The position numbers and the translations under genes were made by a program. Of a stretch of 64,000 nucleotides of DNA, positions 49,944-60,470 are shown piece after piece (the first letter of the stretch is position 1; each line of letters begins with the position of its first letter). The stretch covers positions 397,617-461,616 of the forward strand of contig MKVX01000005.1 in assembly GCA_001899255.1 (NCBI GenBank). Direction: 5' to 3'. Under the pieces are notes generated by a model. That model worked only from the letters and a program-made list of their open reading frames with translations. It was not told where the DNA came from and ran no database searches. The DNA comes from Rhizobiales bacterium 62-47. GTDB taxonomy: Bacteria; Pseudomonadota; Alphaproteobacteria; Rhizobiales; Xanthobacteraceae.

Positions 49944-50019
49944 GCCGCAATAGCTCAGCTGGTAGAGCACGTCATTCGTAATGACGGGGTCGGGGGTTCG
50001 AATCCCTCTTGCGGCACCA
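49944..50019 (+). tRNA. tRNA-Thr (anticodon CGT)
   Basis: A complete cloverleaf: acceptor GCCGCAA paired with TTGCGGC, D-arm TAGCTCAGCTGGTAGAGC, anticodon stem CGTCA/TGACG around loop TTCGTAA (anticodon CGT), T-arm GGGGGTTCGAATCCCTC, discriminator A and CCA encoded. Its 3' half overlaps the end of the recombinase gene on the other strand, which marks it as the probable integration site of the following island. Confidence 0.96.
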
Positions 50020-51690
50020 TTCCTGAACAGATTTACGAACCGCAGGCGCGGGTTGGCCATTCGGACCGAAGGTAGCCCGGATGTTGTCGTTTGAGCCGAT
50101 GATGCGGATCGTGGTGTCGGACACGACGATCGCGTCCACGATAGCTCTCAGATAGGCCTTCCGGGCGGCGACATCGCCTGACACAAGCTGTTCTCGCATC
50201 AAGCGGGTGAAGCGATCAATGGCGACAGGATCGATCTCGATCGGGACCGTGCTGGACTTCTTAGCATAATCGAGGGCCTCAAGGGCCCGGTCCCGGCTCG
50301 TCTTCAAGGCGGTCACGCGTTCCCTCAGCGTTGGGTCGGTGCCGTCGATGGTGCCCGCCTCAATCGAGGCATAGAGACGGGAGAGCCGTTCTTCGGCGTC
50401 GGTGACCTGACGGGCAAGATCGACCAGACGGCGGTCGGCGGAGGCTTGGCGGTCGTCGCGGCGGGCCTTGAGGGTGGTCAGGATAGCTGTGACCCGTGCG
50501 GGCTGCAGGAGCTGGTCCAGCAGGGCCTCAAGCACGAGCTTTTCGATGACGGGCCGGGCAATCTTGCGGTTGCTGCAAGAGGCGCCATCATCGTGCTTAT
50601 GCTGTCCCTTTTTGATGGACTGGATGCATTTGTAATAGTTGTAGACGACGCCGGTCCGAGAAGTGCCGGTGGCGGTCGTCAGGGCGCAGGACTTGGCGCA
50701 GTCGCAGCGGACAAGGCCGCCCAGCAAAGACGGCGCCGAGGCGAGCCGCGGCCCGCGAGACCTCGGGCGGCGCGACACCAGCAGGGCCTGAACCGCCTCG
50801 AAGGTCGCCGCATCGATGATGACCGGAATTTCGTATTCGATGATTTCGGACTGCGCCTTGCGCTCGCCGTCGCCCTTCCGATCAAACTCATTGAAGTTCC
50901 GCACGCCGGTGTAGGCGCGGCGCGTCAGCATCTCGTGAATAGTCCCAGTCCCAAACAGCGATCCGTTGCGCGAGCGATAGCCACGTGCGTTCAGCCACTC
51001 CGCGATCTTCTTCGTTCCCAATGGGCCGCTATTGCCATCCCCGTTCTTGGCCAAATCGAATGTGCGAATCACAATCTCCGCTTCGACCGGCTCGACGGCG
51101 AGTTTCTTCTTTTGCTTGTTACCGATGATCTCTGCATCAACGGATTTGTAGCCATAGGGAATGATTCCGCCGTTGGAGTAGCCGAGTTGTGCATTGGCCT
51201 TCATCGTTCTCATTGTCGAACGACTTGTCTCCTTCGACTGGTATTCATTCACTATGCCGATGAACTTCCTGAACATATCGCCAGTGTCATCGTTCGCCAG
51301 CGGCTCGGCATGCGAAATCAATTCAACCTTGTGCTTGCGTAGGGTTTGGACCGTGAGCTCTTGCTCCACTTGATTCCGGAAGGCACGCGAAAACGAGTAC
51401 ACCATGATCGCGTCGACGGTGCGCGTACCATCGGTCGCACGCGCAATCATCTGCTCGAATGCTGGCCGCCTCATGTTGGTGGCAGTCTCACCCTCTTCAC
51501 GGAAGATGCCGGCGATATGATCGCCATCGCGCTTGCAACGCGCGATCAGATTTTCCTCCTGTGAATCGAGGCTGAGCTGGTTGCTGCTCTGTTTTTCCGT
51601 CGACACCCGAATATAGATCAAGACATTCCGGGGCCGCGGCTCAATGTTCTTGTCAGGCGTTGCGACAGCTTGAAGGTGCTTGCGGGCCAT
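49972..51690 (-). CDS. Large serine recombinase (site-specific integrase)
   Basis: A 572-residue recombinase. The resolvase domain has NVLIYIRVSTEKQSSNQLSL with the catalytic Ser in RVSTEKQ, and YSFSRAFRN. The Recombinase domain has LGTKKIAEWLNARGYRSRNG, then a zinc ribbon (VRCDCAKSCAL ... YYKCIQ ... CSNRK) and a coiled-coil C-terminus. It should integrate and excise the island. ATG 51690 follows GAGGAAG by 6 nt. The last 15 residues (WCRKRDSNPRPRHYE) are encoded by the antisense of tRNA-Thr, and the stop lies inside that gene. Serine recombinases at tRNA genes are less common than tyrosine ones. The next-in-line genes are transcribed the same way. Confidence 0.93.
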   Translation of the reverse strand: MARKHLQAVATPDKNIEPRPRNVLIYIRVSTEKQSSNQLSLDSQEENLIARCKRDGDHIAGIFREEGETATNMRRPAFEQMIARATDGTRTVDAIMVYSFSRAFRNQVEQELTVQTLRKHKVELISHAEPLANDDTGDMFRKFIGIVNEYQSKETSRSTMRTMKANAQLGYSNGGIIPYGYKSVDAEIIGNKQKKKLAVEPVEAEIVIRTFDLAKNGDGNSGPLGTKKIAEWLNARGYRSRNGSLFGTGTIHEMLTRRAYTGVRNFNEFDRKGDGERKAQSEIIEYEIPVIIDAATFEAVQALLVSRRPRSRGPRLASAPSLLGGLVRCDCAKSCALTTATGTSRTGVVYNYYKCIQSIKKGQHKHDDGASCSNRKIARPVIEKLVLEALLDQLLQPARVTAILTTLKARRDDRQASADRRLVDLARQVTDAEERLSRLYASIEAGTIDGTDPTLRERVTALKTSRDRALEALDYAKKSSTVPIEIDPVAIDRFTRLMREQLVSGDVAARKAYLRAIVDAIVVSDTTIRIIGSNDNIRATFGPNGQPAPAVRKSVQEWCRKRDSNPRPRHYE

Positions 51691-51784
51691 GGAGACTTCC
51701 TCACGCGGTACTGAAAACGAGTCTAGCCCTGCAGCCGAATCAGGGAAAGCATTTCCTTTGTCCCAGGCTACTGCACAGTTAAGA

Positions 51785-52144
51785 TCAACCGAAGGGCACT
51801 TCGTTATCGACCACATTCCAGCGCTTGCGTAAGGCCTCCCACAACAGCTCCTTCTGGTTTGCCAGCAGCAGCTCGAACGCGTCCTGCGCGCAGTTGGAGA
51901 CGCGACGGAAGCCTTCGACGAACATGTCGTGACGCTGATCTTCGGTCAGTTCGCGGAGCTGACGAATCGCCGGCAGCCGACCGAGCACCCTGAAGCACTT
52001 CTCCGGATCCGGGTCAAAATCGGTCTTGTTGGCGATCGCATCGATCGACTCCAGCACCAGCCAGAGCCCGGCCTCGACGGCGAGGTCGGCAAAAGTCGCA
52101 AACGGGATGGCGTTGTTGTCGAGCGGAAGGTTGCTATCAGACAT
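51785..52144 (-). CDS. Hypothetical island protein, 119 residues
   Basis: A 119-residue acidic, helical protein starting MSDSNLPLDNNAIPFATFAD and containing DFDPDPEKCFRVLGRLPAIR. I do not recognise it. It has AAAGGA upstream of ATG 52144 and lies 21 nt after the related small gene at 52166-52438, so they share a transcript. It has no transmembrane segment. It could be an accessory transfer protein, but that is only inferred from position. Confidence 0.6.
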   Translation of the reverse strand: MSDSNLPLDNNAIPFATFADLAVEAGLWLVLESIDAIANKTDFDPDPEKCFRVLGRLPAIRQLRELTEDQRHDMFVEGFRRVSNCAQDAFELLLANQKELLWEALRKRWNVVDNEVPFG

Positions 52145-52165: not shown

Positions 52166-52438
52166 TTAGAAGGAAGATTTGCGGGAAGAGTCGAAGACAG
52201 CGTCGAGCACCGCCGAGAAGTAGCGCTCGATGGCATCGAGCTCGGCGGGCACGATCGGTGTGGGATCCGCGATCTCGTTGATCACGGTCCAAAACTCGGG
52301 GTCGGACGGACGCAAGCGGGCGGCAGCGCCGCGATTCCGCGTTGCCACGGTCGGCATGGCGACCGGCACCGGCGGCAACGCGGCCGGGGCGGTCACTCGC
52401 GGCCGTAACAGCTTCTTCGGAATGCGCGATTTAGCCAC
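52166..52438 (-). CDS. Hypothetical island protein downstream of the deleted relaxase copy
   Basis: A 90-residue protein from a GTG that overlaps the stop of the relaxase remnant (GTGGCTAA). The N-terminal half is basic and Pro-rich (VAKSRIPKKLLRPRVTAPAA); the C-terminal half has PTPIVPAELDAIERYFSAVL. The latter resembles PITVRELDTIQIYLGDLIDQ in the gene after the full-length relaxase, so the two are paralogues. The function is unknown; position suggests a relaxase partner. The much longer open frame upstream of the GTG runs through the relaxase remnant and is rejected. Confidence 0.6.
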   Translation of the reverse strand: MAKSRIPKKLLRPRVTAPAALPPVPVAMPTVATRNRGAAARLRPSDPEFWTVINEIADPTPIVPAELDAIERYFSAVLDAVFDSSRKSSF

Positions 52439-52703
52439 AGTCGCACTCCGTGGATTGATCGCGCTCGTGCGAGTACTCCTCGACCCACGCAGCGTGGTCC
52501 GGCACGGGATCGAGGGTGCTGGTCTTGACTTGGAGTCGTGGCGCCCAGTTGGTCCAATGGGCAGGCCGCCGCTGGTCAAAGCTGCTTGCCGACGAGACCC
52601 AATAGCTCGCGGGCCCACGGCAGCCGAGATAATACCCGGACCGCTCGGTGTACCCCCTCGCCGTTGTACCAGCTGCGATTGTCGCGACCACGAAAGCCTC
52701 CAT
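52431..52703 (-). pseudogene. Internally deleted MobF relaxase copy (two ends joined)
   Basis: The 90-residue frame has the relaxase start (MEAFVVATIAAGTTARGYTE, then YYLG and SSASSFDQR) joined directly to its C-terminal tail (WAPRLQVKTSTLDP ... QSTECDCG). The full-length neighbour at 53809-56466 begins MEAYVVATIAAGTTARYYSK and ends SRVQVKSSTLDP ... SRSYVRG, so about 800 codons are missing, including His motif III and the helicase. The first catalytic Tyr pair is altered (RGY for RYY). The start, the hairpin around it and the GTGGCTAA junction downstream are kept. It cannot nick DNA in the usual way, but its intact frame could encode a small protein. Confidence 0.8.
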
Positions 52704-52713
52704 CGAAGGAGGC
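52696..52713 (-). promoter_or_regulatory. Hairpin enclosing the start codon of the relaxase remnant
   Basis: GCCTCC and GGAGGC (6-bp arms) flank the six nucleotides containing the ATG. The same hairpin is present at the start of the full-length relaxase. There is no normal ribosome site upstream of either start, and the GGAGG lies after the ATG. It may regulate translation. Confidence 0.45.
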
Positions 52714-52859
52714 TGTCTGTAATCGCGCCCGTCGGATCATGTTGCAGAGCAATTGAACGAGATCGGTCCTTTGCGGTTCGAAAAGATCCTGAGATCGGAA
52801 TCTCCGGTGATTGCTGGTTGTGATTGGAAGTCCAAACCGCTGCCGTTCCTTGCTCGCTC

Positions 52860-53525
52860 CTATCGATCGTGATCGATTGCACGAATTTTACGAACCCGCA
52901 GCAGGAGCCGTGCGAGCCAAGCGCAGATGCTGCGTTCAGTGGCCGCTTTGCTGCCGAAGAATGCGAATTCGGGATTGGCCGCCGCGATCTCCACTGCCTC
53001 CAGCGTGCGCTTGGTCGCGGTGACGCGCTGGATCAGCGCTGCGATTTCCGGACGGGTAATGACGAGCTTCGCTAATCCAATCGCCTCTTTCCTCGCTGGC
53101 GCCTCCAGGATAAGGTTAACGAGTTCGCGGAGCTCGGGTGGGCTGCCAAGGCCGACAACCAGGGGCCGCAACTCCTCGTCAGCAAGCAACAGTTCAATGG
53201 CCTGATGGAAGGCCTCGTCTCCGATCGCGGTCGCGGCGCCGCGAATTGTGGCGCGCGAGCGATCATCGTCGCCGACCGAAACATTGATTTGGCGCTTGCC
53301 TGCGGCTTTGTGTTTCTTCCGGTGCCTTTCCTTACGCAGCGACGCTTTTGAGCGTTCGGTCCGCATGAAGGCCATGACGCCCTTCATGCCGCCGGTCCGG
53401 AGCTCGTCGTCCGTCAGAGGGCCGATGATGGTGTTGCACGGTTGTGCCGCCGCGCCGGCGTCGCCGGGTGCATCGTCGGCGGCACCGCTCTCGGCTTCTT
53501 CGGAGTCTTGATCAGTAGGGCACAT
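52860..53525 (-). CDS. Hypothetical island protein, basic N-terminal region and helical C-terminus
   Basis: A 221-residue protein from ATG 53525 (a GTG five codons upstream is possible). It has an acidic N-terminus (TDQDSEEAESGAADDAPGDA), a very basic stretch (SLRKERHRKKHKAAGKRQIN), then helical Leu/Ala/Glu-rich sequence (ELLLADEELRPLVVGLGSPP, TATKRTLEAVEIAAANPEFA). I do not recognise it. It lies immediately before the second partner gene and is transcribed with the relaxase group. The basic stretch could bind DNA. Confidence 0.6.
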   Translation of the reverse strand: MCPTDQDSEEAESGAADDAPGDAGAAAQPCNTIIGPLTDDELRTGGMKGVMAFMRTERSKASLRKERHRKKHKAAGKRQINVSVGDDDRSRATIRGAATAIGDEAFHQAIELLLADEELRPLVVGLGSPPELRELVNLILEAPARKEAIGLAKLVITRPEIAALIQRVTATKRTLEAVEIAAANPEFAFFGSKAATERSICAWLARLLLRVRKIRAIDHDR

Positions 53526-53532
53526 GGCGTCG

Positions 53533-53816
53533 CTAGGCACGATCTAGGGACGGAAGCCCTGATGGGCCTTCCGCTCTGGGGATGGAAATGGGCTGGGTGA
53601 GCGCGTCTGGGGCCGTTCCGGTGGGCAGCTGGTCGATCAGGTCGCCCAGGTAGATTTGGATCGTGTCCAGCTCCCGCACGGTGATCGGAATCATCTCCGG
53701 CAGATCGTCGAGCACGATCGAGTCGTCCGGCGATGCGCTGGCCGAGGTCGCGCGTCGGGGCCCTTGACGGTCGTGACCCCAGGCGGTCCCCGCCCTGTCT
53801 TTCGCGACTTAGCCAC
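53533..53816 (-). pseudogene. Second relaxase-partner gene, apparently frameshifted
   Basis: The GTG at 53816 overlaps the full-length relaxase stop (GTGGCTAA), as in the other copy, and gives VAKSRKTGRGPPGV. That frame stops early. The paralogue-like C-terminal part (LDDLPEMIPITVRELDTIQI, then YLGDLIDQLP) is in the next frame and ends at 53533. One open stretch from GTG 53715 gives 60 residues. Either a frameshift broke the gene or the shorter 60-residue form is used. The resemblance to the gene at 52166 is limited to about 25 residues. Confidence 0.5.
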
Positions 53817-56466
53817 GGACGTAACTCCGTGACTGGTCGTCCTCCCGGGCGCGAGCGGACGCCCGCGCAGCCAACTCCAGGGTTGGGTCGAGCGTCGAGC
53901 TTTTTACCTGGACCCGGGACAGTCTGGCGGCCAGCCAGCTAAGGCGGGTCTCGGCTGAGACGGTCGCGCCGCGCCGCTCGGAGAGCGGAAGGTCAAGCCG
54001 CGCCTGGGCGTCGATCTGCCGGGAGTCGGCGTAGATGCCCACAAGGTCCCTCGCCCTGGAAAACGCCACATAGGCGTCGTGCCGGGTCATGGACGGATCG
54101 GCCCAGACGAAGCACTGATCCGTGGTCAGGCCTTGTGCGCCGTAGATGGTGGTGCTGTAGGCATGCCCCAGCCGGGCTCGACCGTGCTCGTCGGCGAGCT
54201 CACGGACGGGGAACGTCGCAAGCCGCCCATCGATCGATACGCTGATGATCGGATCGAGCGCGCCGTCATTTTCGACACCGGTAATGGTGGCAGTGCTGCC
54301 GTTGATGACGCCGAGTCCGTCGTGACGGACCAGGAACCGCACCCGGTCGCCGACCGCGAACTCAAGCGTCTGACCGTGGCCCGACGGCGTCACCGCGGGA
54401 ATAGCAATCCTGTTGCCCACGATCAGCCCGGCGCGTTTCAGGCGTGCCCGCACCTCATCGTTCAGCGCGCAAATCTGAGCATTCGTCTTGGCGATCAGCA
54501 GCACGTTCGGGTTGGTGACGACGCGTTGGGTTTCCTCCCAGGCATCGACCAGAGCCCTGACCGTTGCTTTCTCGCCAGCGGCGAAAGTCAGGCAGCCGCG
54601 CTCGTCGAACGCTCGCAGGCCTGCTTCGGCTCGTCCATTTGCGAAATCAGTGACGGCTTCGCGCATCCAGCGCTGGCGCTGCCGCACGATGGCGTCGACG
54701 CGGGCGGTATCCGTGACGTTGGCGACAATTGCCAGCCCCGGTCCGGCACCGATGGCTTGGAGTTGTGTGCGGTCGCCAACCAGGATGACCTTGGCGCTGG
54801 CTTCCACGGCTTTGCCGATGATCGCGTGCATCTGGCGCGAGGACAGGAGGCCGGCCTCGTCGACGATGAGCACTGTGTTGTCGTCTAAGAATGGCTTCGA
54901 CGTCTGTGCGAGCCACGAATCCGTCGCACGTGATTCGATGCCAAGCACCTGCAGTTCCAGCGCGATCTTCCACGCCGTAGCCGATCCGATCACGCGTCGG
55001 CCCGCATGCATGTGCGCGGCCACCACGCTGGCGAGCAGGTGCGATTTGCCCGAGCCGGCCGCCCCCTGAATCACCGCGATTGCGGCGGACGACGTTGCCG
55101 CTAATGCGGCCCGGGTCTGTTCGTCGGACAGCCTACGCTCGCGGCACAACCACAGAACGTGATCGCGATCAGGCGCCGGCCGTTCCTCCCGAACTAGGCG
55201 CTCGGTGAAGGCGACCAGTTCACGCTCGATTGCGATCTGCTCTGGCGTCGAATAGACGGGCTGCTGCAGGGCATCCCGTCCAAGCTCGACGACGCGTCCT
55301 GCTTCTATCAGGCGGTCCACTTCCTGCTCGACGCGCGTCGCGTCGGCGCCAGTGCCGACAAGGGAGGATGCGACGGCTGCATACAGGTGGCGACGCTCAA
55401 AGACGCTTTCGTGTTCGGTCAACTGCTCTGGCAGGGCCGCAATGCGCTCGGCGATCAGCTTCTCCTGTTCAGCGTGATCCCACGTCCGTGACGTGCGGAG
55501 GTGCTCCATGAGTCGATTGACGTCCAGGAACATCGCGGCTTCCTCGGCCCACAGTTCGAAACGATCAGTGACGCGCTCCTCCTGCTTCGATGAACGCGTT
55601 CCGAGTGCGATGGCCGCCGCCAGTGCCGGTGCTTCCGCCGTCGACAGTCCTTCCGCAGCGATGGTCTGTTCGATTTCCTTGCGGCGTCCCGACAGGTGGC
55701 GCTGCAACGCCACAAAGCTCTTGGCGAGGTTTCCGGATTGCTCGCCGCCGCTCAGCGTATGCGGAACGACGATTTCGAAGGTGCCGTTCTTGCCGATCTC
55801 GCCGATTTCAAAACCAATTTTCTTCAAATTTGAAGACAATGCGAGATGGTACACCGCGCCGGCCGCCATCTTGTGCGCGAACAGGTGGCGCGCGTCGAGC
55901 GCGCCGACGGTACCGTCCTGCCGCAACGAAAAATTTAGTAAAACTGCATGCGTATGCAGGTTGGGATCGGGATAGACCTTGCCGTCATCGTGCTCGACCG
56001 GGCGCGCTTCCCCATGCTGGAACGCGGCGACAGTGAGCGTGGCCCGTTCAAGGCGATGGCCGTTCTTGCCACGCCGGCAAAACGCCGCATTTCTTTCCAG
56101 GAAGGCGATTGTTGCTTCGCATGCTTCGTGCTGAGCCTTCTCAATCGCACGACGCATCTGGTCATCCGCAAGGGCGAACACGACGGAGACAGATTTCGGT
56201 GCCGACAGCGTCAGATCGATACCGCCGACGCGCTTCGCCGTGTCGCCGCTGTTGGAGAGGAGGGGCTGTCCATCAGCGTCAAGAGACGCGTGGAGCCGCT
56301 CGAAGAGCGCATTGTCAACTTCAGCGCCGTGCCTGACGCCAAAATTATTCGTCGATGAAATCCAGCGGCCGGCGGGCTCACCGCCGCCGAGATAATACTC
56401 TGACTGCTTGCTGTAGTATCGAGCTGTCGTCCCAGCAGCGATCGTCGCAACCACGTAAGCCTCCAT
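53809..56466 (-). CDS. MobF-family conjugative relaxase with helicase domain (TrwC/TraA-like)
   Basis: An 885-residue protein. The N-terminal relaxase domain has paired catalytic Tyr (ARYYSKQSEYYLGG), GGIDLTLSAPKSVSVVFALA, and motif III PDPNLHTHAVLLNFSLR with the three His metal ligands. The C-terminal helicase has Walker A (IQGAAGSGKSHLLASVVAA), Walker B (VLIVDEAGLLSSRQ), GDRTQLQAIGAG and STTIYGAQGLTTDQC. It should nick DNA at oriT and unwind it for transfer to a new cell. ATG 56466 is within a hairpin and lacks a normal ribosome site. A deleted copy lies downstream. It is divergent from the unrecognised gene at 56679. Confidence 0.93.
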   Translation of the reverse strand: MEAYVVATIAAGTTARYYSKQSEYYLGGGEPAGRWISSTNNFGVRHGAEVDNALFERLHASLDADGQPLLSNSGDTAKRVGGIDLTLSAPKSVSVVFALADDQMRRAIEKAQHEACEATIAFLERNAAFCRRGKNGHRLERATLTVAAFQHGEARPVEHDDGKVYPDPNLHTHAVLLNFSLRQDGTVGALDARHLFAHKMAAGAVYHLALSSNLKKIGFEIGEIGKNGTFEIVVPHTLSGGEQSGNLAKSFVALQRHLSGRRKEIEQTIAAEGLSTAEAPALAAAIALGTRSSKQEERVTDRFELWAEEAAMFLDVNRLMEHLRTSRTWDHAEQEKLIAERIAALPEQLTEHESVFERRHLYAAVASSLVGTGADATRVEQEVDRLIEAGRVVELGRDALQQPVYSTPEQIAIERELVAFTERLVREERPAPDRDHVLWLCRERRLSDEQTRAALAATSSAAIAVIQGAAGSGKSHLLASVVAAHMHAGRRVIGSATAWKIALELQVLGIESRATDSWLAQTSKPFLDDNTVLIVDEAGLLSSRQMHAIIGKAVEASAKVILVGDRTQLQAIGAGPGLAIVANVTDTARVDAIVRQRQRWMREAVTDFANGRAEAGLRAFDERGCLTFAAGEKATVRALVDAWEETQRVVTNPNVLLIAKTNAQICALNDEVRARLKRAGLIVGNRIAIPAVTPSGHGQTLEFAVGDRVRFLVRHDGLGVINGSTATITGVENDGALDPIISVSIDGRLATFPVRELADEHGRARLGHAYSTTIYGAQGLTTDQCFVWADPSMTRHDAYVAFSRARDLVGIYADSRQIDAQARLDLPLSERRGATVSAETRLSWLAARLSRVQVKSSTLDPTLELAARASARAREDDQSRSYVRG

Positions 56467-56476
56467 CGAAGGAGGC
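56459..56476 (-). promoter_or_regulatory. Hairpin enclosing the start codon of the full-length relaxase
   Basis: GCCTCC / GGAGGC arms flank the ATG exactly as at the remnant (52696-52713). Beyond the hairpin both copies share further upstream sequence: CTGTCYGTARTCGCGCCYGT and GTTGCAGANCAATTGAA. This conserved 55-60 nt could hold the promoter, a control element, or part of the transfer origin. Confidence 0.45.
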
Positions 56477-56678
56477 TGTCCGTAGTCGCGCCTGTCGTTT
56501 CACGTTGCAGATCAATTGAAGAAAAGTCCGGTTCGAGCGACCCCAAGAGCGGCGCCAGTCCAGATGACACTGAGGGAAAACGCTCGGATTTTACTCAAAA
56601 TCCCAACGAGCTTTTCGCCGACCCGAAATGACTGCTTGGGTAATCAACACCGGCAACTTGATTGGCAGAGGAAGCGTC

Positions 56679-58121: not shown

Positions 58122-58240
58122 ACAGCCTCAATTGACGACGATGGGGGCGCCGATGTTCAATTGGTCTGCAACATCGCGCCGGTTAATCGGCCACCCTGCT
58201 CGCACGACAGCACCCACTGCCGTGAAAGCAGGAGATGACC

Positions 58241-58928
58241 ATGACTTTGCAGAGAACTTGCCGGACCATCCGAACGATCGTGCAAACCCGCCTCGCCGAA
58301 ATCAACGACGATCTCGGCGACAAGCCCCTGGTTCAGGCTGCTCGCAATCTCGGGCGGGGGCGCCACCGACGTCGCAGCTGCGATGCTCGCCCGCTATCCG
58401 CATTGCTATCTGGTCAACGCGGATTATTCGAGCCTTCCCCGTATCGAACTGGCCGAATACAGAACGTGCCAGGTCGATAACGTCCCGCTGATCCGCGTGA
58501 GCGAGAAGGCTATGCGCGGACTGATCAAGGGCCGTCGAGCGTACATGACCACATTCCTGGAACACGGCGTGACCTTGGTCGAGGGCGACGGGGAAATGCC
58601 GTTTGCGACGGGACGCGACGTCATCCTTTCGATCGTGAACAATGGTTGGCATATCTTGACGGTCGATGACGCTCGTCACGTTCTCGACGGCCGCGACATC
58701 GCCAACTCCGCGGGCGGCTATCTCACAACGCGCGGCGGCTGGTTGTCTGATGTGGAGAGGGACGCTGACGCAATCGGCATCGCGGGAAGCCTGTTCCCCT
58801 TCTGCGAGCAGGTGATCGCGAGCCGGGCAGCCGTCATCGTGATCTACACGCCCGGGCTGCCGCGGCCGCTGAGGCTCTGGCGTCTCAGCCCGACGTGGAT
58901 CATGCCGCCGCTTCCGCCGGTCGCGTAG
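58241..58928 (+). pseudogene. Unrecognised island gene with a probable frameshift
   Basis: The gene starts at ATG 58241 (GGAG at a good distance) and reads MTLQRTCRTIRTIVQTRLAE, INDDLGDKPLVQAARNLG. In a G-rich run near 58351-58360 the protein-like reading moves to the next frame: GGGATDVAAAMLARYPHCYL, then VNADYSSLPRIELAEYRTCQ to a stop at 58926-58928. The first frame stops early in Arg-rich nonsense. One base changed in the poly-G run would join them to about 228 residues. I do not recognise the family. The part from 58383 (181 residues) could also be a separate gene, but has no ribosome site. Confidence 0.55.
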
Positions 58929-59255: not shown

Positions 59256-60470
59256 ATGACAACTTGGTTGGACCGTTTCGTATTGGACGCTGGCCGCGAA
59301 GTGATGGCTGCTCTCGTAGCCAAGGGTCAGGGGCACTTGCCTCACGCGAAGAATCCGCTGCTTGCTATGATGGCGACAGCGAACCAAGCGGCTGTCATCC
59401 GCGCGAACTCTTCAGATGGGGTCGATATCAACACGGAATTTGACGCAACGATCGCGCGCTGGTTCCTTGATCAAAGTGGACACTGCGATCGTCACGTCGT
59501 GGCATTCCAATTCGACTACAAAACCGTCGACTATCTCCTTCAGCAGCAAGTCACGAGAGAAATGGCTTATAAGGCTGGGATGTTCAATACGCGCTATCTT
59601 GGCGTCTACCTGGACTTTGTTGATCAAGCAATGCTGGTGGACGATCAGCTAGAAGTCTCCGCCGTCGCGCTCTTGAACCAATGGAGCGCAGATGGACGGG
59701 GTCTTGCGGCACCACGCGTGTTCATGGTGGTGTCGCCGCCCGGTGAATTTAGCCGCCGAATTCTGACGTGGGTGTGGGGTTCACCCAATGAAGTCATCGC
59801 CACTGATGCCCTACCGCCACTCAGCGGTCCGGCAAATCAGGAACCGGTCAGCGCCGATCTATTGCAAGCAGCGGGGCTGACAGCCTCTGGCCTCGCCAAA
59901 GAACTTGAGCGAATCGTCTGCCTCGCTTGTTGGTATGCAGCCTGCGAGCATGACCTCGGCTTGGCAAACCATCTGCGGAAACTCGATATCAGAGAAGCTG
60001 AGGGGCTCGGAGCCGCTGACGTATTCCTTCCTGAAGGTTGCACGTTCTTCAATGTGTCACGACTGCCTTCGCTTCTCGGACCAAGCTGCGCGGTCAAATC
60101 CGATGAGATGCACAATCGGTTCTATCCTGCGATCCTGATCGATCCATATCACCGTAGCGTCAAGTCAATTGACGTGACGGATGAGCTGGGATCGCTGCAA
60201 GGCGCGATTGGCGGCTCCATTCATTTGGCTGCCGAATTGACCGACGGCGATATTCTGTATGTCGACGAGGAAGGCCTGTTCAAGCACCGGCTGGCCTTCG
60301 AAATCGACGGCCAGAGCTTTCCAGGCCGCGGATTGATCGTCGGGTCACACGGAGATGAATACGACGTTGCGGCCATAAAATGCTGCGTCGAGGACGTCAT
60401 TCGGCGCATCAAATTCAGTGAGCCGGATCCAGCACTGGGTACCAATCGTGTCGTTGCCGTTCCGGCGTGA
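59256..60470 (+). CDS. Unrecognised island protein with a possible DUF3846-like C-terminus
   Basis: A 404-residue protein; ATG 59256 follows AAGGAATAAGCA. Residues 1 to about 280 match nothing I know (start MTTWLDRFVLDAGREVMAAL; a Cys/Trp stretch VCLACWYAACEHD). The last 110 residues (HRSVKSIDVTDELGSLQGAI, LYVDEEGLFKHRLAFEIDG and GRGLIVGSHGDEYD) look like the DUF3846 domain, found in phage and plasmid proteins and suspected to be accessory. Codon use is lower in GC than the chromosome. It lies alone between gaps of 327 and 552 nt. Confidence 0.6.
   Translation: MTTWLDRFVLDAGREVMAALVAKGQGHLPHAKNPLLAMMATANQAAVIRANSSDGVDINTEFDATIARWFLDQSGHCDRHVVAFQFDYKTVDYLLQQQVTREMAYKAGMFNTRYLGVYLDFVDQAMLVDDQLEVSAVALLNQWSADGRGLAAPRVFMVVSPPGEFSRRILTWVWGSPNEVIATDALPPLSGPANQEPVSADLLQAAGLTASGLAKELERIVCLACWYAACEHDLGLANHLRKLDIREAEGLGAADVFLPEGCTFFNVSRLPSLLGPSCAVKSDEMHNRFYPAILIDPYHRSVKSIDVTDELGSLQGAIGGSIHLAAELTDGDILYVDEEGLFKHRLAFEIDGQSFPGRGLIVGSHGDEYDVAAIKCCVEDVIRRIKFSEPDPALGTNRVVAVPA

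Follow-up and report, generated by a model that had tools for sequence, protein, structure and literature searches.

The window, by which we mean the whole stretch of 64,000 nucleotides analysed, carries on its minus strand a full-length MobF relaxase gene (53809..56466; 885 codons from its ATG) with a TrwC relaxase domain followed by an SF1 helicase. Its product matched TrwC (PF08751, 7e-56) and AAA_30 (4.5e-41) in Pfam and the MobF family NF041492 in NCBIfam (1e-54, 186 bits with a cut-off of 100). The gene is followed on the same strand by dsA (53533..53816), whose frame, opened by GTGGCTAA, ends after 41 codons (97 in the related island L005), and by orfB (52860..53540; 226 aa), a module of a different type, relaxase-dsA-orfB, which is also found in L005, L083 and L084. 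Beyond it, again on the minus strand, lie a frame of 90 codons from its ATG (52431..52703), dsB directly downstream (52166..52438; 90 aa; 80 homologous proteins at E <= 0.001, its own cluster included), orf119 (51785..52144; 119 aa) and a large serine recombinase gene (49972..51816), whose 3' end is located inside a tRNA-Thr(CGT) at 49944-50019. The contig stops where the window stops, and this arrangement of recombinase and tRNA was seen at one end. Thirteen nucleotides of the tRNA 3' end recur at 59702-59714; this candidate attachment repeat was discarded, as it lies within a frame conserved in L084. A DNA search with the left end in 8 genomes of the genus returned matches mostly to tRNA sequence, and Rfam at gathering thresholds gave nothing beyond one tRNA between 49000 and 60500.

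Sequence comparison confirmed that the 90-codon frame descends from a second MobF relaxase gene and is a remnant that keeps the leader, the start region and the 3' junction of the full gene and has lost the approximately 800 codons between them. An ungapped DNA repeat on the minus strand (52577-52757 and 56340-56520; 139/181 nt or 77% identical, E 7e-37) spans 54 nt of upstream sequence, the start hairpin and some 42 codons. The match between the 3' ends, which contain the GTGGCTAA junction, is weaker (69/111, 62%, E 5e-5), and the full gene is itself a mosaic, nearest to L003 and L004 and in some stretches to L122 up to about nucleotide 1350, and to L005 beyond; its 3' end is therefore not a direct sister of the remnant's end. 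The first 42 or so codons and the last 111 nt are the only recognisable relaxase parts of the remnant. The original prediction that the two genes share start, end, start hairpin, upstream sequence and junction was borne out by the DNA alignment of both loci that it had proposed, since the similarity is not limited to a handful of codons and includes both ends. In the protein database the short protein matched the N-terminus of a relaxase, P0002; it matched no family in either Pfam or NCBIfam, and it does not qualify as a MobF relaxase, a class that calls for a TrwC relaxase domain with the catalytic tyrosine and the histidine triad at the positions which we take these residues to occupy.

Both genes are likely to start at codon 5, a GTG (52691 in the remnant, 56454 in the full gene), and not at the ATG. 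Of 22 relaxase start regions, twelve lack an ATG at codon 1; all twelve carry ATG, GTG or TTG at codon 5, preceded in 10 of them (not in L144 and L145) by a purine-rich stretch resembling a Shine-Dalgarno sequence. Protein clusters P0001 and P0084 start at codon 5; the assignment is only likely because P0002, P0003 and P0085 had their start called at codon 1. A start at codon 5 would give products of 86 aa for the remnant and 881 aa for the full gene, and what had been described as a start-codon hairpin would become a hairpin over the Shine-Dalgarno sequence.

In the remnant, the predicted inner hairpin over the Shine-Dalgarno sequence, AGCCTCC-ttcgat-GGAGGCT, occupies 52695..52714 and, in the predicted fold, is extended to a stem at 52683..52727, in which the likely GTG start is paired as well; the corresponding predicted structures of the full relaxase leader lie at 56458..56477 and 56446..56490, all on the minus strand. 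Stems with 6 or more pairs at most 5 nt from the likely start occurred at 27 of 30 relaxase or short-form sites, including all four short forms, versus 15 of 130 controls, which were other start sites of the same loci. This count leaves out the second copies L075 and L076, L127 (same matches as L125), and L126, L141 and L146, in which the relaxase 5' end is missing, cut or rearranged. The hairpin arms of L085, L090, L091 and L147 have a different sequence with the pairing retained. Predicted pairing of the Shine-Dalgarno sequence was 0.99-1.00 in the four short forms, compared with 0.52-0.92 for the same zone at four other starts within the window. Taken singly, two of the four short-form hairpins (0.057 and 0.070) and 4 of the 26 full ones failed against shuffles at 0.05, and in a close set of 12 sequences changes on both sides of a pair did not outnumber those of shuffles (109/500), though the covariation score was higher (6/500). 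A hairpin of this kind might also function as DNA, a counterpoint to any leader acting at the RNA level.

Upstream of the hairpin, a 17-nt motif, TTCAATTGNTCTGCAAC, is located 37 nt before the ATG of both the remnant (52741..52757, minus strand) and the full relaxase (56504..56520, minus strand), and a third site lies on the plus strand upstream of the region of a 181-aa gene (58156..58172), as it also does in L003 and L004. These are three exact matches in the window; 0.21 would be expected with up to 3 mismatches. The distance of 37 nt applies to both relaxase copies of the window, L003 and L004, except for 38 nt at the L003 full gene. In L081 both copies are preceded by a changed motif, TATTTGGYCTGCAAC, and the third site, before the 181-aa gene, is without the changed letters, which speaks against the argument drawn from the motif. 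Across the order the motif matched 3 of 397 genomes, namely its own and two with single matches, whose 16-kb surroundings contained no match to an island protein; among viral contigs 50 stretches matched and none of the 50 encoded island proteins. Matches outside the island are therefore likely due to chance. A scan for sigma-70-type promoters found 0 (2.4 expected), and the motif was not upheld as a demonstrated promoter.

The suggestion to look for the same short form in related islands proved fruitful, as the remnant is present in three others (L003, L004 and L081), in each case, as in the window, directly before dsB-orf119-recombinase; two of them are from Bradyrhizobium and one from another member of the family. 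Bradyrhizobium strain SZCCT0399 is one carrier of a short form. Among the 14 islands that carry this type of recombinase (E <= 1e-150), these four have the short form and seven a full-length relaxase at this place (split over two frames in L144); in L141 the relaxase end is cut by the contig, and L126 and L146 have a broken relaxase, which in L126 lies behind foreign DNA of IS-like appearance on visual inspection and in L146 is rearranged. A protein search with the short form matched 19 genomes, 11 with weak matches (E 0.0027-0.0097) being left out. Further short forms, P0003 (identical to that of L004), P0084 and P0085, are called proteins; since a protein search favours open frames, they were left out of the argument from length changes, which rests on the window, L003, L004 and L081.

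Relatives show the layout without the deletion, with a full-length relaxase that overlaps a homologue of this downstream gene. At all nine such relaxase ends the next frame has a candidate start 8 or 11 nt upstream of the point at which the relaxase stop ends (seven of the nine have other candidate starts as well). The leaders of the four short forms and four full genes form two groups (SH-aLRT 99.2, ultrafast bootstrap 84). Together, these data agree with the proposed duplication and subsequent internal deletion, and the sequences support the view that, of two relaxase copies produced by duplication, one was hollowed out. The neighbouring genes do not demonstrate a single deletion: L122, which has a full relaxase, falls inside the short-form group when the recombinase is used for the tree, and in the dsB and orf119 trees both L122 and L126 are intermixed with that group.

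At the junction (52431..52438, minus strand), GTGGCTAA joins the stop of the remnant to the GTG start of dsB. In all four short forms the stop overlaps the downstream start by 8 nt, as is characteristic of a coupled leader whose stop overlaps or adjoins the next start, and all four retain GTG or ATG as the overlap start, whereas behind the full relaxases of L003, L004 and L081, which are followed by no ds match, this start codon is lost in every case (GCG, GTA and GCG). There are two exceptions: L082 retains GTGGCTGA with no ds match behind it, and the full gene of the window retains GTGGCTAA before the short dsA frame. Moreover, dsB has a GGAG-like sequence of its own, so that an uncoupled start is possible.

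The short forms differ in length (90, 80, 71 and 69 codons), and start, hairpin and overlapping stop are in register in all of them. All four frames are open, with a probability of 0.001-0.33 in neutral simulations depending on divergence and ancestor; the +1 frame is likewise free of stops in all four, which makes the open frame weak evidence, and we dropped it as decisive proof of translation. In the first 15 codons pN/pS was 0.16-0.36 among the window, L003 and L004 and 0.48-0.76 in pairs with L081; after codon 15 it was 0.55-1.4 in the short forms versus 0.16-0.26 in full relaxases. As judged from these ratios, the remnant past codon 15 evolves almost free of protein constraint.

What the deletion has removed are the catalytic and helicase parts, and what it has retained are the upstream motif (changed in L081), the inverted repeat over the putative Shine-Dalgarno sequence, the open frame and the stop/start overlap. 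We lean, with some reserve, towards the explanation that the remnant is a leader cistron placing the predicted excision genes (dsB, orf119 and the serine recombinase gene) under the translational control of the relaxase. A transcript would begin upstream of the hairpin, which would block translation until a signal opens it; ribosomes on the short frame would then terminate 5 nt beyond the dsB GTG and reinitiate there, the peptide itself being a by-product. The full relaxase gene, which has this motif and hairpin in front of it as well, would be activated together with the short frame, and excision and DNA processing would in this way be timed together. More tentatively, and with the balance of probability against it, the arrangement may be a duplicated RNA switch, in which the copied Shine-Dalgarno hairpin of the relaxase heads a hollow leader gene and one signal, consisting of a factor that opens the hairpin and a regulator of the 17-nt motif, starts both DNA processing and excision. 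If true, a relaxase gene would have been turned into a pure control cassette.

Somewhat unlikely, in our estimate, is that the remnant is a decaying relic, with selection acting only on the promoter region and the start of the downstream gene and the frame open by chance in G+C-rich DNA. The near-neutral pN/pS past codon 15, the open +1 frame and the overlap start kept by L082 would all be expected of a relic, and so would the low identity of the short forms to that of the window (44-58%; in L003 and L004, dsB is 69-71%, orf119 54-69% and the recombinase 87-92% identical). However, a relic accounts poorly for start, hairpin and stop staying in register in frames of different lengths, for an overlap start lost behind the full gene and kept behind the short form in the same three islands, and for the coding-type pattern of the first 15 codons.

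An improbable reading makes the hairpin and the adjacent conserved TGGTYGC a relaxase-binding or oriT-like site, of which the remnant would be a second copy. The inverted repeat persists through sequence change, a hairpin adjoins nic in known MobF origins, and codon 6 is GTT at 20 of 30 sites when GTT makes up only 7 of the 67 Val codons of this relaxase, an excess suggesting constraint on the bases themselves; low-G+C early codons are, however, common for translation reasons as well. The 3' arm, moreover, holds or adjoins the purine-rich Shine-Dalgarno-like stretch at translation distance, and a copy of oriT has no need of an open frame, a 3' end or an overlap. The least probable reading, and one that we abandoned as first choice, is that of the original prediction, a mini-relaxase or regulatory peptide competing with the full enzyme or tuning it. 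In its favour, the first 15 codons show conservation of a synonymous type among the window, L003 and L004, and P0003, P0084 and P0085 exist as called proteins. The product nevertheless matches no Pfam or NCBIfam family, keeps neither the tyrosine positions (both of the first pair are lost in L003, the second pair in L004) nor most of the sequence, shows the pN/pS of 0.55-1.4 reported above for codons after 15 and is predicted to be unfolded (mean pLDDT 47, from an alignment of only 4 sequences).

The preferred reading, a translationally coupled leader, treats the four diverged islands as a natural deletion experiment, in which a relaxase gene lost its coding middle and retained the control parts at its ends; the outcome suggests that it is the start hairpin and the stop/start overlap which matter for the downstream genes. 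Far relatives of the window relaxase are the MobF relaxases of Methylobacterium plasmids (best plasmid match NZ_CP043630.1, annotated mobF, 47% identity over 98% of the relaxase). Among the literature matches listed, we found no description of a hollowed-out relaxase leader, and truncated relaxases were left out of an analysis in one of the sources (PMC10711300). In IMEMl R88B-like elements of Mesorhizobium, as in the islands described here, a MOBF relaxase gene, traA, precedes a putative excision gene, there a putative RDF gene, and the authors suggest that transcription may couple excision to expression of the relaxase (PMC8627217). Their passage on this point differs from our reading in suggesting only transcriptional coupling and in making no mention of a remnant relaxase (PMC8627217). 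Control of the E. coli gene iraD runs through a short ORF upstream of it, the stop of which overlaps the iraD start, and the regulation, as outlined in that report, acts at the initiation region of the leader ORF (PMC5574718). The putative leader of the islands resembles it in the overlap of stop and next start and, unlike the iraD leader as presented there, would be a hollowed-out relaxase remnant carrying its own predicted hairpin at the initiation region.

The short frame (90 codons, 52431-52703, minus strand) was compared with the gene of the MobF relaxase (885 codons, 53809-56466, minus strand; TrwC domain 7e-56, MobF model above cut-off) and showed DNA similarity to both its ends. The leader and about 42 codons aligned ungapped over 181 nt with 77% identity, while the final codons, together with the GTGGCTAA junction, gave a weaker match than the 5' one (111 nt, 62% identity). 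About 800 codons are absent from the middle. The original observation of a relaxase deprived of its central part is correct. The minus-strand order in the window is full relaxase, dsA, orfB and short form.

A scan with the full relaxase, using one genome per species, returned three Bradyrhizobium loci (L003, L004 and L005) with 75-82% identity. L003 and L004 each carry the full relaxase, a downstream short form and then dsB, orf119 and the serine recombinase of the window type. A more diverged short form of 71 codons occurs in a family member (L081); it was missed by tblastn at 1e-3 and spotted by reading the gap. A search of 150 relatives with the short protein returned its own genome and one weak match with two stops, and nothing more. 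Run against 265 genomes of genus g25, the same search matched 19 of them at E 0.01, eight of which were read, the remaining 11 being weak matches; G740 and G840 (those of L003 and L004) hold short forms, and G685, G721, G727, G729, G746 and G818 full or broken relaxases instead. Protein searches over 5.8 billion sequences added two short forms, P0084 and P0085. The short form is real and occurs in four islands.

The recombinase was then searched (E ≤ 1e-150) in two overlapping sets of 265 and 391 genomes, yielding 14 distinct islands. Four carry a short form and seven have a full-length relaxase at its position (L085, L089, L090, L122, L144 in two frames, L145 and L147); L141 is cut by the contig end, and L126 and L146 have broken relaxases. 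In all nine relaxase ends read, the next frame has a candidate start that precedes the last base of the relaxase stop, by 8 nt in L085, L122 and L126 and by 11 nt in L089, L090, L141, L144, L145 and L147; seven of the nine have other candidate starts too. By this layout and these overlaps, the operon normally opens with the relaxase, and the short form stands in its place. In L126 (6600-6960) the relaxase is cut by a foreign stretch, IS-like by eye, with the last ~250 codons and the dsB overlap retained. The recombinase 3' end lies inside tRNA-Thr(CGT) (window 49944-50019), the left end of the island; the matches to the related recombinases of L003, L004, L122 and L085 end within tRNA-Leu(CAA). 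Contig C5 (G000) stops at the last base of the window, so that the right end of the island and any transfer genes there lie beyond it.

In a tree of leaders, the four short forms and the four full genes from the same islands formed separate groups (support 99.2/84), and in the window, L003 and L004 MEAF is common to the short forms and MEAY to the full genes. Of the predicted duplication followed by internal deletion, one duplication is thus supported by the leader split, while the neighbour-gene trees fall short of proving a single deletion: L122, with its full relaxase, falls inside the short-form group in the recombinase tree, and the trees of dsB and orf119 mix L122 and L126 with that group. 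A later regain through recombination may account for this, or there may have been two deletions; recombination is plausible because the full relaxase of the window, judged by its nearest relatives, is itself a mosaic. Compared in 150-nt steps, this gene is mostly nearest to L003/L004 (73-89%) up to about 1350 nt, with three steps nearest to L122 (81-86%), and beyond that point nearest to L005 (71-89%, with L122 equally near in one step). The L005-like 3' part is followed by dsA and orfB of L005 type. At 53533-53816, the gene opened by the GTGGCTAA of the full relaxase runs for 41 codons before it stops (97 in L005), and its homologous remainder runs on in another frame.

Upstream, TTCAATTGNTCTGCAAC has three exact occurrences in the window, where 0.21 would be expected when allowing up to 3 mismatches: 37 nt ahead of the full-gene ATG, 37 nt ahead of the short-form ATG, and a third upstream of the region of the divergent 181-aa gene. 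The pattern recurs in L003 and L004 at a spacing of 37 nt, except for 38 nt ahead of the L003 full gene. L081 has the motif in the form TATTTGGYCTGCAAC ahead of both full gene and short form, as would be expected if one regulator read both copies, and its third site, ahead of the 181-aa gene, is without this change. In L003, L004 and L081 the stretch upstream of the 181-aa frame is 14 nt longer than in the window (58172-58383), where the 5' part of that frame may therefore be out of frame.

The start had been placed at the called ATG, which is probably wrong; codon counts favour codon 5, four codons downstream. ATG is missing at codon 1 in 12 of 22 further relaxase start regions, all 12 having ATG, GTG or TTG at codon 5 (15 ATG, 13 GTG and 2 TTG over all 30 sites), and a GGAGG-like purine-rich stretch precedes codon 5 in 10 of the 12, being absent in L144 and L145. 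Clusters P0001 and P0084 begin at codon 5; P0002, P0003 and P0085 are called from codon 1. Given this evidence, GGAGG is most likely the Shine-Dalgarno (SD) sequence, and the hairpin previously assigned to the start codon most likely pairs it. Codon 6 is GTT in 20/30 relaxase or short-form sites, against 7/67 Val codons in the window relaxase, which hints at base-level constraint beside the hairpin.

Stems with 6 or more pairs, at most 5 nt from the codon-5 start, were found at 27 of 30 sites (23/26 full, 4/4 short; not at the L081 full gene, L144 or L145), against 15 of 130 other starts of these loci that have an SD-like sequence, these controls being mechanical frames rather than curated genes. 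Compared with shuffles of their own leader, 24/30 sites reached p < 0.05 (22/26 full, 2/4 short), and L085, L090, L091 and L147 retain the stem despite quite different letters. Among the 12 closest rows, 96% of inner-helix cells were paired and the covariation score was equalled by 6/500 shuffles; two-sided changes of pairs showed no excess over shuffles (109/500). An outer helix is predicted to reach over the start codon in full and short copies of the window, L003 and L004. Predicted SD pairing reached 0.99-1.00 across the four short forms and 0.82-1.00 across the full genes that match them; the corresponding zone of four other window start regions gave 0.52-0.92.

The suggested mini-relaxase is not favoured, as the short forms do not keep the Tyr positions, their predicted structure is unfolded (a model from 4 sequences), and their pN/pS after codon 15 is 0.55-1.4, full relaxases showing 0.16-0.26. 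Over codons 1-15, pN/pS is 0.16-0.36 among the window, L003 and L004 and 0.48-0.76 in pairs with L081. The frame is open as far as the overlap in all four short forms; since the +1 frame is equally open in all four and neutral simulation gave 0.001-0.33 for the four open frames, this is suggestive only. The junction is more informative. In L003, L004 and L081, where no match to the dsA/dsB type follows the full relaxase, the overlap start codon is lost in 3/3, and it is kept in 4/4 short forms, with dsB frames of 90-93 codons. The argument is weakened by L082, a further relaxase locus retaining GTGGCTGA without such a match, and by the L081 full gene, where the following frame is open for 99 codons despite the lost start codon.

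The short form is best read, on these sequence comparisons, as a control relic and not as a mini-enzyme. It would act as a leader cistron: transcription would begin in the motif region, a putative promoter, the hairpin would gate translation of the short frame, and ribosomes finishing at its TAA would restart at the overlapping dsB GTG, followed by orf119 and the recombinase, so that the recombinase operon might be co-timed with the relaxase. The motif, inverted repeat and overlap are all present in the sequence. These parts are of known kinds; their arrangement, with a hollowed-out relaxase as leader, was not found among the literature matches listed. The proposed role resembles that of the E. 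coli iraD leader ORF, a tested case of such a design (PMC5574718). A putative excision factor is encoded downstream of traA in Mesorhizobium, and its authors suggest that excision may be coupled to relaxase expression (PMC8627217).
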